Below, piece after piece: positions 2,736-6,976 of a stretch of 7,297 nt of DNA. The stretch comes from Chloroflexota bacterium. GTDB taxonomy: Bacteria; Chloroflexota; Dehalococcoidia; JACQGW01. Location: assembly GCA_016199325.1 (NCBI GenBank), contig JACQGW010000073.1, positions 1 through 7,297 of the forward strand, read 5' to 3'. Positions within the stretch are counted from its first letter, which is position 1. Each line of letters opens with the position of its first letter. Both the position numbers and the translations under genes were made by a program. Under the pieces are notes generated by a model, which saw nothing but the letters and a program-made list of their open reading frames with translations, made no database searches and had not been told where the DNA came from.

Positions 2736-2775
2736 AGGATGCAACGATCGGGCTGCCCTTGACAGATTGTGAGGG
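2736..2775 (+). repeat. 40-bp direct repeat, copy 2 (feeds the leader promoter)
   Basis: The second exact copy. Its TTGACA (2759-2764) is followed at the right distance by an extended -10, so this copy supplies the -35 of the promoter of the leader RNA. The shared 23 bp upstream of TTGACA contain the palindrome CGATCG and could be an activator or repressor site. Confidence 0.85.
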
Positions 2776-2786
2776 TGTGGTACAAC
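2759..2786 (+). promoter_or_regulatory. Sigma-70-type promoter with extended -10
   Basis: TTGACA (2759-2764), a 16-nt spacer, then TACAAC (2781-2786) preceded by TGG (the TGn extended -10). The expected start of transcription is about 2793, exactly the first base of the GCCCGCC arm of the structured leader. No other convincing promoter is seen between here and ATG 2933. Confidence 0.65.
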
Positions 2787-2792
2787 GGCAAT

Positions 2793-2895
2793 GCCCGCCC
2801 GGCTGGTTAGAGAAATGCCGAGCCGGGGGGCTGTAGTCGAATACCGACAACTTCAGGCGGGCTGCCGGTATCGGGCGAGCCCGCTTTTTCTTTCT
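2793..2895 (+). ncRNA. Structured leader RNA with attenuator architecture (orphan riboswitch or small RNA)
   Basis: A transcript from the promoter at 2759-2786 would begin with GCCCGCC (2793-2799), which pairs with GGCGGGC (2856-2862) as a 7-bp GC-only closing stem. Inside are CGGCT/AGCCG (2800-2804/2821-2825) and GTCG/CGAC (2836-2839/2845-2848). The 3' arm of the closing stem overlaps the 5' arm of the terminator (2857-2866), so the two structures exclude each other. This is the layout of a transcriptional attenuator, with the closing stem as antiterminator. It matches no riboswitch class I can recall: no c-di-GMP, SAM, cobalamin, fluoride, TPP or T-box consensus is present. It ends 37 nt before ATG 2933 of a secreted protein. 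It could instead be an independent ~100-nt small RNA. Confidence 0.5.
2857..2895 (+). terminator. Intrinsic terminator inside the leader
   Basis: GCGGGCTGCC (2857-2866) pairs with GGC (2874-2876), a bulged G, and AGCCCGC (2878-2884) around a 7-nt loop. The stem is followed by TTTTTCTTTCT (2885-2895). This is a textbook rho-independent terminator, lying between the promoter and the coding region that starts at 2933. Confidence 0.8.
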
Positions 2896-2916
2896 GGCCG
2901 GGGTACATTTGGCGTC

Positions 2917-2935
2917 AGAGGAGGCGGGTCCCATG
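2917..2935 (+). promoter_or_regulatory. Shine-Dalgarno AGAGGAGG deciding the ATG 2933 start
   Basis: AGAGGAGG (2917-2924) is 8 nt upstream of ATG 2933, an ideal distance. It lies inside the 8-codon extension from TTG 2909, which argues for ATG 2933 rather than TTG 2909. Confidence 0.75.
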
Positions 2936-5563
2936 GTTTCCCTGATGGCACACCGCATCGCGCTCCACCTTCGTTCTACGCTGCCGGCGGAAGGAGAGCG
3001 CCCCCACTGGGGCTGGCCCGCCATCGTCGGCCTGGCCATCATGGTCGCCTTCGCGGTCGCGCTGGGCTCGCTGTGGCCGCCGGCATCGGCACGGGCCGCG
3101 CCGATGCGCTCCGTACCGGGTGGGCGCGCGGTCGCCGCCGCGGTGCAGGCGGACGCTCCGCTGCCGGTCGTCAGCAAGTGCGGCGAGATCGGCAGCGAGA
3201 CCTGGACCGCGGGCAACGTCTACGTCATCAACTGTGGCGTCAGCGTGCCGGCCACTGCCACGCTGACGATCCAGCCGGGGACGGTGGTCAAGGGGGCGAA
3301 TAAGTGGCAGGGCATCTGGGTCAGCGGCGGCCTGAACGCCCAGGGCACGGCGGCGGCTCCGATCGTCTTCACGTCCATCGCCGACGACGTCCACGGCGGC
3401 GACACGAACGGGGACGGCACGGCGACGGCGCCGAAGCCGGGGGACTGGTGTACCATCTCCTTTGCCGCCGGCAGCCGAGGACGGATCGCCAACGCCTTCG
3501 TCGGCTACGGCGGCTACTCCAACTGCGATAATAAGTCTACCTGGGATGGCATGGTCTACAGCGCCAGCAGCGACGTCGTCCTGGACCGGGTGACGCTGCA
3601 GGGGAGCGGTTCGAGCGGCCTGCACGCCGCGGGCGCGAGTGTGAGCCTCAGCAACAGCACCGTGATCAGCAACACCGGTAGTGGCTTCTACTACAACGGC
3701 GTCGACGCCACGGTTCCCCTGATGCTGACGGACAACACGTTCACCGGGCAGGTGAATCGCGCCAGTGCCTACTTCTACAACCCCGGCTATGCGGGGGTCC
3801 TGGCCCTCGCCGGCAACCCCGAGCAGATCAGCCTGCTGCGCAACACCGCCAGCGGTAACCTCCTCAACGGCTTCCGGGTCTCCGGCGTGATCACAGGAGA
3901 CCTCACCTGGGACAACACGGGCAGCCTGCCCCTGATCCTGGACGGCGGCCTGTCCGTCGGTCCGACGGCGACGCTGACGCTCCAGCCGGGAACGGTGGTC
4001 AAGCTGCCGGAAAGGCACCAGGGCATCTGGGTCAGCGGCGGCCTGAACGCCCAGGGCACGGCCGGGGCACCGATCGCCTTCACGTCGGTCGCCGACGACA
4101 TCCACGGCGGCGACACGAATGGCGACGGCACGGCGACGGCGCCGTCGCCGGGGGACTGGTGCGCCATCTTCTTCAACGCCGGCAGTCGAGGGCGCATCGC
4201 CAACGCCTTCATCGGCTACGGCGGCTGGGACTTCTGCAATAATGAGAACTACCGGAACGGCATGGTGTACAGCGCCAGCGGCGACCTGGGGCTGGAGCGG
4301 GTGACGCTGCAGGGGAGCTGGACCAGCGGGCTCTACGTCAACGGCGGCTCGCCGAGCCTGCACCACAGCGTGATCATCAGCAACGCCTTCGGCGTCCGGA
4401 ATGCCCAACCCGCCGACCTGATGGACGCCCGCGTCAACTGGTGGGGCGACGCCAGCGGCCCCTATCACCAGACCTCGAACACCGACGGCAAGGGCAACGG
4501 GGTCAGCGACGGCGTCATGTACTTCCCCTGGGTCACCGATCGGAGCACGGGGCAGCGGGCGGGGCTACAGGTGACCGGCCCGAGCATCGCCAGCCCCGGC
4601 CAGCGGGTGGACTACGCCATCTCGTATGCCAATGGGCCGGACGAGACGATCGAGAATGCCGTCGCCGTCCTGATCCTGCCGGTGGCCGCGGTGTACGTCG
4701 ACAGCACGGCCGGCGGCATCTACTGGCCCGAGCGGCACGAGGTGTTCTGGCGTCTGGGCAACCTGGCGCCGGAGGCCAGCGGCACCCTCTCGGCCCGCCT
4801 GCGCTACTATTGGGGCGTCCCCTCGAATGCAGTGGATACCGCGGTCGGCATCCTGGTCGGGACCAACGTCGGCCAGGCCGGCATCGTGGTCGCGCCCTAC
4901 CTGACCTACACCCCCCGCACCATCGCCGGTGCGGTGGCGCTCAGCAGCGGCGAGCTCCAGTCGGAGCGCGCCACCTACGCCGACCTGGAGAAGATCTACG
5001 GCGAGGCCATCGCCGCGGGGTTCATCCTGGGCGAGGCGAGCCGGCTGACCATGAGCGGCGGCGAATCGGTCGTCCAGGTCGTCCTCTTCAACGGCAACGC
5101 GGGAAGCGTGATGTATCTCCGCCGCCAGGGCCTGCGCGTCCAGGCTTCGACCTTCGACCGCACATCCTACGCGATCCGCGACGCCACGGGCGGCATGACC
5201 CAGAGCGTGCAGTTGGGGACGACCGAGTACTGGGGCAGTTGGGCCAGCGCGTCCGGAGACGTCCAGGCCCAGGGCCTGCTCTCCATGGCCGAGTGCTTCC
5301 GCAACTGCGTGATGGAGAGCATACCGGGCTGGCTGGTAGCCAACAAGATCAAGTCCATCGGCGCCGTCCTCAGTGCCGCCGATTGCTTCGACGCCGTGCG
5401 CCTCGGAGACCTGGACGCAGCCGCCAAGTGCGCCGCCGCGCTCAAGGACATCCCGGGCGCCGGTGAGGTCATCGATACCGTCAAGTGCGCCGCGGATTGC
5501 GCCGGCGATCCCGATACTCACCTCTGCAAGGGCGACAAGGTGACCTGCGACCAGAGTTGGTAG
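2933..5563 (+). CDS. Secreted beta-helix / DUF11-like surface protein, N-terminal part ending at in-frame amber
   Basis: An 876-residue exported protein. Residues 1-55 are a signal peptide: a basic N-region, a hydrophobic core at about 29-48 and an Ala-Arg-Ala cleavage site at 53-55. Residues ~105-500 are two right-handed beta-helix modules (Leu111 and Leu348 start equivalent strands) sharing LTxQPGTVVK, QGIWVSGGLNAQGT, GGDTNGDGTATAP and RIANAFxGYGG. Each has a DTNGDG loop resembling calcium sites and a Cys pair (DWC, later a Cys near Asn). The helix closes with NWWGDASGP (502-510), a common end of such folds. Residues ~545-660 resemble a DUF11/conserved-repeat beta-sandwich. From ~670 comes an unrecognised region, then a Cys-rich block (~790-876) cut by TAG at codon 877. 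The frame stays open to 6976, so this is probably the front of a 1347-codon gene. Its role is probably adhesion or cell-surface binding; no catalytic motif is seen. Expression is probably gated by the leader attenuator. Confidence 0.85.
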   Translation: MVSLMAHRIALHLRSTLPAEGERPHWGWPAIVGLAIMVAFAVALGSLWPPASARAAPMRSVPGGRAVAAAVQADAPLPVVSKCGEIGSETWTAGNVYVINCGVSVPATATLTIQPGTVVKGANKWQGIWVSGGLNAQGTAAAPIVFTSIADDVHGGDTNGDGTATAPKPGDWCTISFAAGSRGRIANAFVGYGGYSNCDNKSTWDGMVYSASSDVVLDRVTLQGSGSSGLHAAGASVSLSNSTVISNTGSGFYYNGVDATVPLMLTDNTFTGQVNRASAYFYNPGYAGVLALAGNPEQISLLRNTASGNLLNGFRVSGVITGDLTWDNTGSLPLILDGGLSVGPTATLTLQPGTVVKLPERHQGIWVSGGLNAQGTAGAPIAFTSVADDIHGGDTNGDGTATAPSPGDWCAIFFNAGSRGRIANAFIGYGGWDFCNNENYRNGMVYSASGDLGLERVTLQGSWTSGLYVNGGSPSLHHSVIISNAFGVRNAQPADLMDARVNWWGDASGPYHQTSNTDGKGNGVSDGVMYFPWVTDRSTGQRAGLQVTGPSIASPGQRVDYAISYANGPDETIENAVAVLILPVAAVYVDSTAGGIYWPERHEVFWRLGNLAPEASGTLSARLRYYWGVPSNAVDTAVGILVGTNVGQAGIVVAPYLTYTPRTIAGAVALSSGELQSERATYADLEKIYGEAIAAGFILGEASRLTMSGGESVVQVVLFNGNAGSVMYLRRQGLRVQASTFDRTSYAIRDATGGMTQSVQLGTTEYWGSWASASGDVQAQGLLSMAECFRNCVMESIPGWLVANKIKSIGAVLSAADCFDAVRLGDLDAAAKCAAALKDIPGAGEVIDTVKCAADCAGDPDTHLCKGDKVTCDQSW
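3263..3667 (+). repeat. Beta-helix module 1 (intragenic DNA repeat)
   Basis: This segment aligns with 3974-4378 at a constant offset of 711 bp for the first half. A 44-bp stretch is identical (3308-3351 and 4019-4062). It encodes the LTxQPGTVVK to GYGG block and the following S-rich coils. It shows an internal duplication within the surface-protein gene. Confidence 0.8.
3974..4390 (+). repeat. Beta-helix module 2 (intragenic DNA repeat)
   Basis: The second copy of the duplicated module. Relative to copy 1 it carries conservative protein changes (IVFTSIADDV to IAFTSVADDI, CTISFAAG to CAIFFNAG), while the DTNGDG loop and the Cys positions are kept. This suggests a duplication held under protein-level selection. 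Confidence 0.8.
5561..5563 (+). other. Single in-frame TAG interrupting the surface-protein gene
   Basis: The codon context is TGG TAG AAC. The same frame is open from 2909 to 6976 except for this codon, and cysteine-rich sequence runs on both sides. The hicA, hicB and Phd/YefM genes and the end of this gene itself (6974-6976) all stop with TAG, so amber is a normal stop here. Confidence 0.9.
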
Positions 5564-6976
5564 AACATCTACTACTGGGCCGGCGTCCCCAACAAGAAGA
5601 TCATTCGCTGCACGAACGGGCGCTACAGCTTCAAACCTGAGATCGTCCCCTGCGCCTTCGGCGAACGGTGCGTCGAGGACGTCGGCTGCGTGGACTGTAG
5701 CAGCAGCGCTCGCAGTAGCGCCGCCCTCGGCGGCGAGAACGACGGCACCGCGGCCGACGCCAACGGAGCGCGTGCTCCGTCCGAAACGAGCGCCGCCAGT
5801 GCCGAGCCCGACGGCATTACGGCCAGCGACTTCTGCCGGGTCCTGGCGGAGGCCGGCGGCGCCTGCGGCAAGAAGAAGACCCGGGTGCGCGTGGCCCGGG
5901 ACCCCAACGCCAAGTACGGGCCGCAGGGCGACCTGCTCCCCGGCCAGCTCCTCACGTACACCATCACCTACGAGAACGAGGGCGCGGGCGATGCCTACGG
6001 CGTCTACGTTGTCGATCCGCTGAGCGAGGTCTTCGACGACGGCTCGCTGGCCGTCCTCGGCGGCGGGCGCTTCATCACCGCCACCCGCACCATCGTCTGG
6101 AAGGTGGGCGACCTCAAGCCGAAGGGGCAGGTGGGCTCGACCGGCGCCGTCACCTTCACCGTCAAGCTGAAGCCGGGCCTGCCCAGCGGCACCGTGGTCG
6201 TGAACCAGGCCACGGTCTACTTCCCCAGCGTGCCGGAGGAGACGCCGACCAATCCGGTGGTCAACGTCGTGCAGCCCCTCGCGGCCCGGCCGCAGGACGT
6301 GCAGACGGCGGCGGGGCAGGCGGTGGCGATCACGCTCCAGGGTGTCGAGGCGAGCGGGCTGCCCCTCACCTTCACCGTGCAGGCCAGCCCGCTGAACGGG
6401 CGGCTGAGCGGGACGGCGCCCAGTCTGACCTACACGCCGGCCGCCAACTTCAGCGGCCAGGACCGCTTCAGCTTCATCGTGAGCAACGGCATCACCGAGA
6501 GTCGGGCGGCCGAGATCAGCATCGTCGTCGTTCCGTCGCCAACTGACTCGACCGCGCCCGAGGTGCTCTGGACATCGCCGGCCGCCAACGCATCGCTGCC
6601 GGAGGTGCAGAGCACGCCGGTGTTGACCGACAGCGCCGGAGCCGGGTACGCGCCTTCGATCGCCGTCCAGTTCAGCGAGGCGCTGAGCACGACGACGGTG
6701 ACGACGGCAACGATCCGGCTGGCGGACGCCGGCGGGCGGGCTGTGACGATCACGGTGGGGTATGACGCCTTCGCGAAGCAGGTGACGATCACGCCGCGGC
6801 GGGCGCTGGGTGGCGGGCGCTACACGGTGGCGCTGACGCGGAACGTCCAGGACGTCGCCGGCAATGGGCTGGCGGCCGACTACAGCTTCAGCTTCGACGT
6901 CGCCGGCCCGGTCGCGGCGCAGCAGTACAGGGTTTACCTGCCGGCCACCTTCAAGAAGCTTGACGCCGGGTGGTAG
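5564..6976 (+). CDS. C-terminal part of the amber-interrupted surface protein (cadherin-like and SbsA-like Ig domains)
   Basis: In the same frame as the upstream part, 470 residues follow the TAG. Counting through from ATG 2933: a Cys-rich stretch with five Cys in about 45 residues (RCTNGRYSF, PCAFGERC, GCVDC) that completes the upstream Cys block; a Ser/Ala linker; a DUF11-like domain (~983-1117; VRVARDPNAKYGP, LLTYTITYENEG, VWKVGDLKP); a cadherin-like/Ig domain (~1118-1205; LTFTVQASPLNGRLSG, LTYTPAANFSGQDRFSF); an SbsA-type Ig-like domain (~1207-1323; TAPEVLWTSPA, VQFSEALS, RYTVALTRNVQDVAGN); and a tail YRVYLPATFKK (1332-1342) ending in TAG. There is no signal peptide. The only plausible separate start is GTG 5690, with a weak GAGGA 10 nt upstream, and such a product could not be exported. 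It is therefore either the untranslated 3' part of a broken gene or a readthrough extension. Confidence 0.75.
   Translation, partial: NIYYWAGVPNKKIIRCTNGRYSFKPEIVPCAFGERCVEDVGCVDCSSSARSSAALGGENDGTAADANGARAPSETSAASAEPDGITASDFCRVLAEAGGACGKKKTRVRVARDPNAKYGPQGDLLPGQLLTYTITYENEGAGDAYGVYVVDPLSEVFDDGSLAVLGGGRFITATRTIVWKVGDLKPKGQVGSTGAVTFTVKLKPGLPSGTVVVNQATVYFPSVPEETPTNPVVNVVQPLAARPQDVQTAAGQAVAITLQGVEASGLPLTFTVQASPLNGRLSGTAPSLTYTPAANFSGQDRFSFIVSNGITESRAAEISIVVVPSPTDSTAPEVLWTSPAANASLPEVQSTPVLTDSAGAGYAPSIAVQFSEALSTTTVTTATIRLADAGGRAVTITVGYDAFAKQVTITPRRALGGGRYTVALTRNVQDVAGNGLAADYSFSFDVAGPVAAQQYRVYLPATFKKLDAGW

Follow-up and report, generated by a model that had tools for sequence, protein, structure and literature searches.

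Terminators in 5′ leaders are widespread, and in E. coli RNA 3′ ends occur in large numbers within 5′ UTRs and ORFs, suggesting that premature termination is used for control (PMC7815308). The crcB and pfl riboswitches have overlapping terminators, placed 3′ in a structured leader (PMC2864571), and among the genes regulated by the c-di-GMP (GEMM) riboswitch many fall into the categories of motility, virulence and biofilm formation (PMC3766115). We analysed a stretch of 7,297 bases from a Chloroflexota contig (hereafter the window), in which a leader is placed between a Phd/YefM antitoxin-like gene (2146–2409) and a surface-protein gene (ATG at 2933). It resembles the terminator-containing leaders of E. 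coli in that it is short, its RNA is predicted to end within the 5′ UTR and a gene lies downstream; whereas the E. coli attenuators come from RNA 3′-end mapping, the leader here is known from the sequence of a single contig. With crcB and pfl it shares the 3′ position of the terminator in a structured leader, but it has no Rfam match, no recognised homologues and a disfavoured antiterminator, and no conserved aptamer was found. It also differs from the c-di-GMP riboswitch, GEMM, a class that an earlier sequence-only reading of this DNA had suggested, giving no match at E ≤ 10 over 2640–2960. With a probability of roughly one half, we take it to be a terminator-containing 5′ leader of an ordinary kind, with partial or factor-controlled readthrough, seen on one contig. 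The features considered are the following.

2660–2703, + strand: direct repeat, copy 1, 44 nt
2732–2775, + strand: direct repeat, copy 2, 44 nt, holding the −35 of the promoter-like site
2759–2764, + strand: −35-like element TTGACA, 6 of 6 matches
2781–2786, + strand: −10-like element TACAAC, 4 of 6 matches
2793–2799, + strand: segment a, GCCCGCC, complementary to 2856–2862
2793–2831, + strand: 5′-terminal hairpin A, −25.9 kcal/mol, containing the GCCCGCC arm in the fold of 2793–2895
2833–2851, + strand: small middle hairpin in the fold of the leader
2855–2886, + strand: stem of the intrinsic terminator, 12 pairs, one bulge and a 7-nt loop
2856–2862, + strand: segment b, GGCGGGC, part of the terminator's left arm
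2879–2891, + strand: segment c (GCCCGCTTTTTCT), right arm of the terminator plus U-tract, able to pair over 13 bp with 2917–2929
2885–2895, + strand: U-tract TTTTTCTTTCT, the first two bases of which also close the terminator stem
2917–2929, + strand: segment d, the Shine-Dalgarno region AGAGGAGG (2917–2924) followed by CGGGT
2933–5563, + strand: first part of the surface-protein gene, ending at an in-frame TAG, no Pfam family
5564–6976, + strand: continuation in the same frame, with Ig-like (Big_5), DUF7619 and DUF11-type domains

TTGACA and TACAAC, separated by a 16-nt spacer, form the only sigma-70-like site in the window, on either strand, with at least 10 of 12 matches (at least 4 per hexamer, spacing 16–18), and a site as good was present on the + strand of 0.4% of 2000 dinucleotide shuffles of 2410–2932. 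A stricter scan, requiring the final T of the −10 element, returned no promoter-like site in the window; it missed this one because TACAAC lacks that T. Promoter activity and a start at 2793 are predictions from these two hexamers. The −35 element belongs to the second copy of the direct repeat, whose copies are 98% identical at a spacing of 72 and are perhaps a duplicated promoter or operator segment; the first copy also carries TTGACA, with no −10 of at least 4/6 at 16–18 nt. Between terminator and gene we found no site of at least 8/12 with its −10 in 2887–2925, as the sequence-only reading had maintained, and a lone TACATT at 2904–2909 has no −35-like element.

Downstream of this putative promoter, the GC-rich stem at 2855–2886 is directly followed by its U-tract, the hallmark of an intrinsic terminator, and the strong terminator said to end 37 nt (2896–2932) before ATG 2933 is indeed present. 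Under a strict rule (hairpin ≤ −12 kcal/mol, at least 7 T of 9), no second terminator occurs on either strand of the window, and 0.15 clusters are expected per shuffled window (20 shuffles). A looser rule gave 4 in the window against 2.5 (sd 1.7) expected; being near expectation, it leaves the terminator set apart by the strict rule only. The antitoxin gene, which ends at 2409, has its own 13-bp perfect hairpin at 2406–2434, overlapping the stop codon and without a T-run, so the terminator need not be that gene's. These data support a leader with a terminator, lying between a single promoter-like site and the surface gene, and from this arrangement attenuation or conditional readthrough at the leader may fairly be inferred.

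The window, of which seven frames were scanned against Pfam, also encodes a DUF1848 protein, and a HicA/HicB toxin–antitoxin pair (1582–2065, − strand) adjoins the Phd/YefM-like antitoxin. The DUF1848 protein gave 108 hits at E ≤ 1e-40; nine of them carry an organism in their source name, and all nine are labelled Chloroflexota/Chloroflexi, Chloroflexia, Thermomicrobiales, Thermomicrobium or Tepidiforma, which points to Chloroflexota. A perfect 32-nt inverted repeat lies at 2496–2580; at E ≤ 1e-5, palindromic pieces resembling it were present in 5 of 29 related genomes, one of which gave as many as 9 matches over the two strands, a pattern like that of a REP-like element.

The MFE fold of 2793–2895 (103 nt) consists of hairpin A, the small hairpin and the terminator, at −54.2 kcal/mol (z −3.9, none of 200 shuffles as good). 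When the terminator half is removed (2793–2875), z is −1.67 and 12 of 200 shuffles are as good, and the fold of 2793–2932 is equalled by 3.2% of 500 shuffles; much of the strength of the leader fold is that of the terminator. In MFE folds of the growing RNA, computed at 4-nt steps between ends 2810 and 2898, hairpin A is fully formed by end 2834 and kept through 2898, the terminator appears at 2882–2886, and the antiterminator proposed by the sequence-only reading is never present. The probability of hairpin A is 0.70, 0.98, 0.67 and 1.0 for RNAs ending at 2932, 2940, 2955 and 2980, the 5′ arm 2793–2799 also having other partners in longer RNAs. Stem-loops that stabilise mRNAs from their 5′ terminus are a known kind of element, and hairpin A is like them in starting at the predicted first base. 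No sensor domain was identified in the leader.

Under the reading that we prefer, a terminator-containing leader of an ordinary kind, transcription most likely starts near 2793 from the TTGACA/TACAAC site, and the nascent RNA would form the 5′-terminal hairpin 2793–2831, the small hairpin and then the terminator 2855–2886 with its U-tract at 2885–2895. Many transcripts would end near 2890–2895, giving a stable RNA of ~100 nt, and a fraction would read through into the surface-protein gene, by incomplete termination, through a protein factor or upon a change in RNA polymerase speed. The degree of termination, and any regulation of it, are predicted from the elements described above.

The same compact succession of promoter, RNA and terminator, with a stable hairpin at each end, might instead represent a free-standing small RNA gene at 2793–2895, the surface gene being driven otherwise or barely expressed. 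We consider this unlikely, though worth keeping in view. The lone TACATT speaks for it, but that hexamer has no −35-like partner and the U-tract lies only 37 nt from the start codon. Rfam, searched over the whole window at gathering score, returned no family, which weighs against a small RNA gene and also agrees with the earlier statement that the leader fits no known riboswitch class; the two matches obtained at E ≤ 10 over 2640–2960 (E 4.8 and 5.9) are not to riboswitches. The in-frame stop of the downstream gene is also in favour of a separate small RNA. This TAG (5561–5563) splits the surface-protein gene into a first part that its relatives suggest to be a beta-helix and the domain-bearing continuation; Big_5, DUF7619 and DUF11-type domains stand in one chain in several relatives (for example P0003, P0004, P0007, P0011 and P0016; 1293–1521 aa). 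The TAG may reflect decay of the gene or an error of assembly, and recoding is a further possibility. Because of this stop, the leader may not be under selection, and with either decay or an assembly error arguments from function weigh less.

The sequence-only reading had itself put forward an orphan riboswitch, in which a ligand would stabilise the pairing 2793–2799/2856–2862 and thereby prevent the terminator; we regard this as improbable. GCCCGCC and GGCGGGC are complementary as strings, and 2856–2862 does lie within the left arm of the stem found, but formation of the a:b pairing has a probability of ~1e-11 over 2793–2895, and of 0.0065, 0.0005, 5.5e-5 and 2e-7 for RNAs ending at 2932, 2940, 2955 and 2980. 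The complementarity is only mildly unusual: a perfect complement of at least 7 nt to the left half of the terminator was found in 8.4% of 5000 upstream-leader shuffles, and in 1.8% within the first 20 nt, the latter figure, which concerns the predicted 5′ end, being a point for the riboswitch. Forcing a:b is 15.7 kcal/mol worse over 2793–2895, a loss to the terminator fold that tells against it, but only 2.6 worse over 2793–2932 and 0.5 over 2793–2862. For a transcript ending at 2862, the hairpin form (−32.1 kcal/mol) and the a:b form (−31.6 kcal/mol) are thus nearly equal, so the idea of a switch is not absurd, though hairpin A, at −25.9 kcal/mol, must open. The exact fit claimed between promoter, start and structure stands insofar as the predicted start is the first base of GCCCGCC, but it is equally the first base of hairpin A; starts at 2789–2793 give the same fold energy and starts at 2794–2796 a weaker fold. 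Since the fit is shared with hairpin A and tolerates these starts, it is no evidence for the a:b stem. Another local antiterminator, ~2841–2849/2863–2871, occurs in the MFE folds of RNAs ending at 2874–2878, with a probability of 0.24 at RNA end 2932 and of 0.02 or less in longer RNAs.

A search for related leaders in 29 class-mates and 400 sampled genomes of the phylum recognised none. Compared with plasmids and phages, the leader DNA gave no match, and the exact promoter and terminator strings were found 0 and 0 times in viral contigs. Within one order, 7 of 16 genomes matched at E ≤ 0.1, the best over 28 nt (E 0.0034) in the upstream repeat; among the class-mates, 22 of 29 matched 2732–2932 at E ≤ 1, the best over 33 nt (E 0.0016). 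All of these matches of the leader DNA are short, none exceeding 40 nt, and the terminator stretch (~2851–2887) accounts for several of the better ones (L105, L092, L094, L107 and L109); inspection of these five showed no leader at any. The L092 match (35 nt, 83%) lies inside an open frame reading QAGCR that resembles the window's frame from 2791. The intergenic stretch was accordingly considered as a decayed gene and this was rejected: none of five overlapping open frames had a Pfam match at E ≤ 1, and the likeness to L092 is therefore taken as chance. An RNA model of the leader, built from the single window sequence (self-score 132.4 bits) and so able to find only close kin, gave matches in 3 of 29 class-mates at E ≤ 1 and, among 400 sampled phylum genomes that included some of the 29, in 2 at E ≤ 0.1; this second search used stricter filters and scored no more than 10 candidates per genome. 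These five matches (20.6–26.4 bits) were rejected as leader homologues, each overlapping a long open frame.

We also looked upstream of related genes. A total of 21 loci were mapped (11 from a set of 80 plus 10 further regions, L020 and L133 being the same place), of which six were left out (L124, L130, L131, L133 and L020, with no clear start, and L036, at a contig edge); for the remaining 15, two of which (L127 and L128) come from one genome, the start was picked by eye. Under a fixed rule (hairpin ≤ −9 kcal/mol, at least 6 T of 9), 1 of the 15 has a terminator in the 300-nt upstream stretch. This sole relative, L018, has its terminator at about −80 and a weak promoter-like site at −145, which would make for a much shorter leader; its terminator may be no more than the end of a gene upstream. 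Note that the relatives are distant, with ~27–36% protein identity in the best segment, and the missing arrangement therefore says little about close kin. With 14 of 15 related genes devoid of an upstream terminator, no recognised leader homologue, no Rfam class, an antiterminator disfavoured energetically and an ordinary fold of 2793–2875, the orphan riboswitch is not borne out, and a lineage-specific riboswitch at the leader is possible but unsupported.

Copies of GCCCGC and GGCGGG alternate at four places in the leader, and the terminator's right arm with its U-tract can form with segment d a duplex of 13 continuous pairs, G-U included. Control could thus be translational, segment c burying the Shine-Dalgarno site and the hairpin 2855–2886 serving mainly to prevent this sequestration, which we find very doubtful. 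The c:d duplex has a probability of 0.30 in the free fold of 2793–2932, but of 0.05 with coding sequence to 2955, and one of this strength turns up in 5.5% of 2000 shuffles that keep the Shine-Dalgarno site unchanged, so that its value as a sign of design is limited; the U-tract, moreover, is better explained as that of a terminator. In RNA ending at 2940, the Shine-Dalgarno site is 56–59% unpaired in both free and terminator-forced folds, which is compatible with an anti-sequestering hairpin, but at end 2955 the corresponding values are 0.12 and 0.13, the site being mostly paired locally, and over ends 2955 and 2980 they span 8–13%. As the site pairs locally in these longer RNAs, there is no clear control of translation by the leader. 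When a:b is forced, c:d reaches a probability of 0.99–1 and the Shine-Dalgarno site is 1% unpaired; this favours a role for c:d and equally makes the proposed ON state of the riboswitch translationally unfavourable, its ribosome-binding site being buried in the 13-bp helix.

It is highly improbable, in our estimate, that four segments (a 2793–2799, b 2856–2862, c 2879–2884 and d 2923–2929) couple transcription and translation. In such a scheme, the state with hairpin A and b:c would terminate the RNA, and the state with a:b and c:d would allow readthrough with the Shine-Dalgarno site buried until a further event frees it; if true, this would be a lineage-specific two-layer lock on the surface protein, with a sensor in hairpin A. 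Ribosome-mediated attenuation by a leader peptide is scarcely credible: a frame across the terminator is indeed opened by ATG 2791, which lies two bases upstream of the predicted start, and by ATG 2815, but it has no stop until 3301, far beyond the terminator, 2793–2895 contains no other ATG, GTG or TTG start and the only further start before ATG 2933 is TTG 2909, in frame with the gene, so that no leader peptide would end before the terminator.

The locus carries a caution for GC-rich DNA, in which 7-nt complementarities to a terminator arm are common by chance (8.4% of shuffles here); because they arise so easily, homologues are needed before such pairings are called switches. If transcripts truly end in the leader, as the terminator-containing leader that we favour predicts, this would be one more attenuated surface-protein gene, in a poorly studied bacterial phylum.
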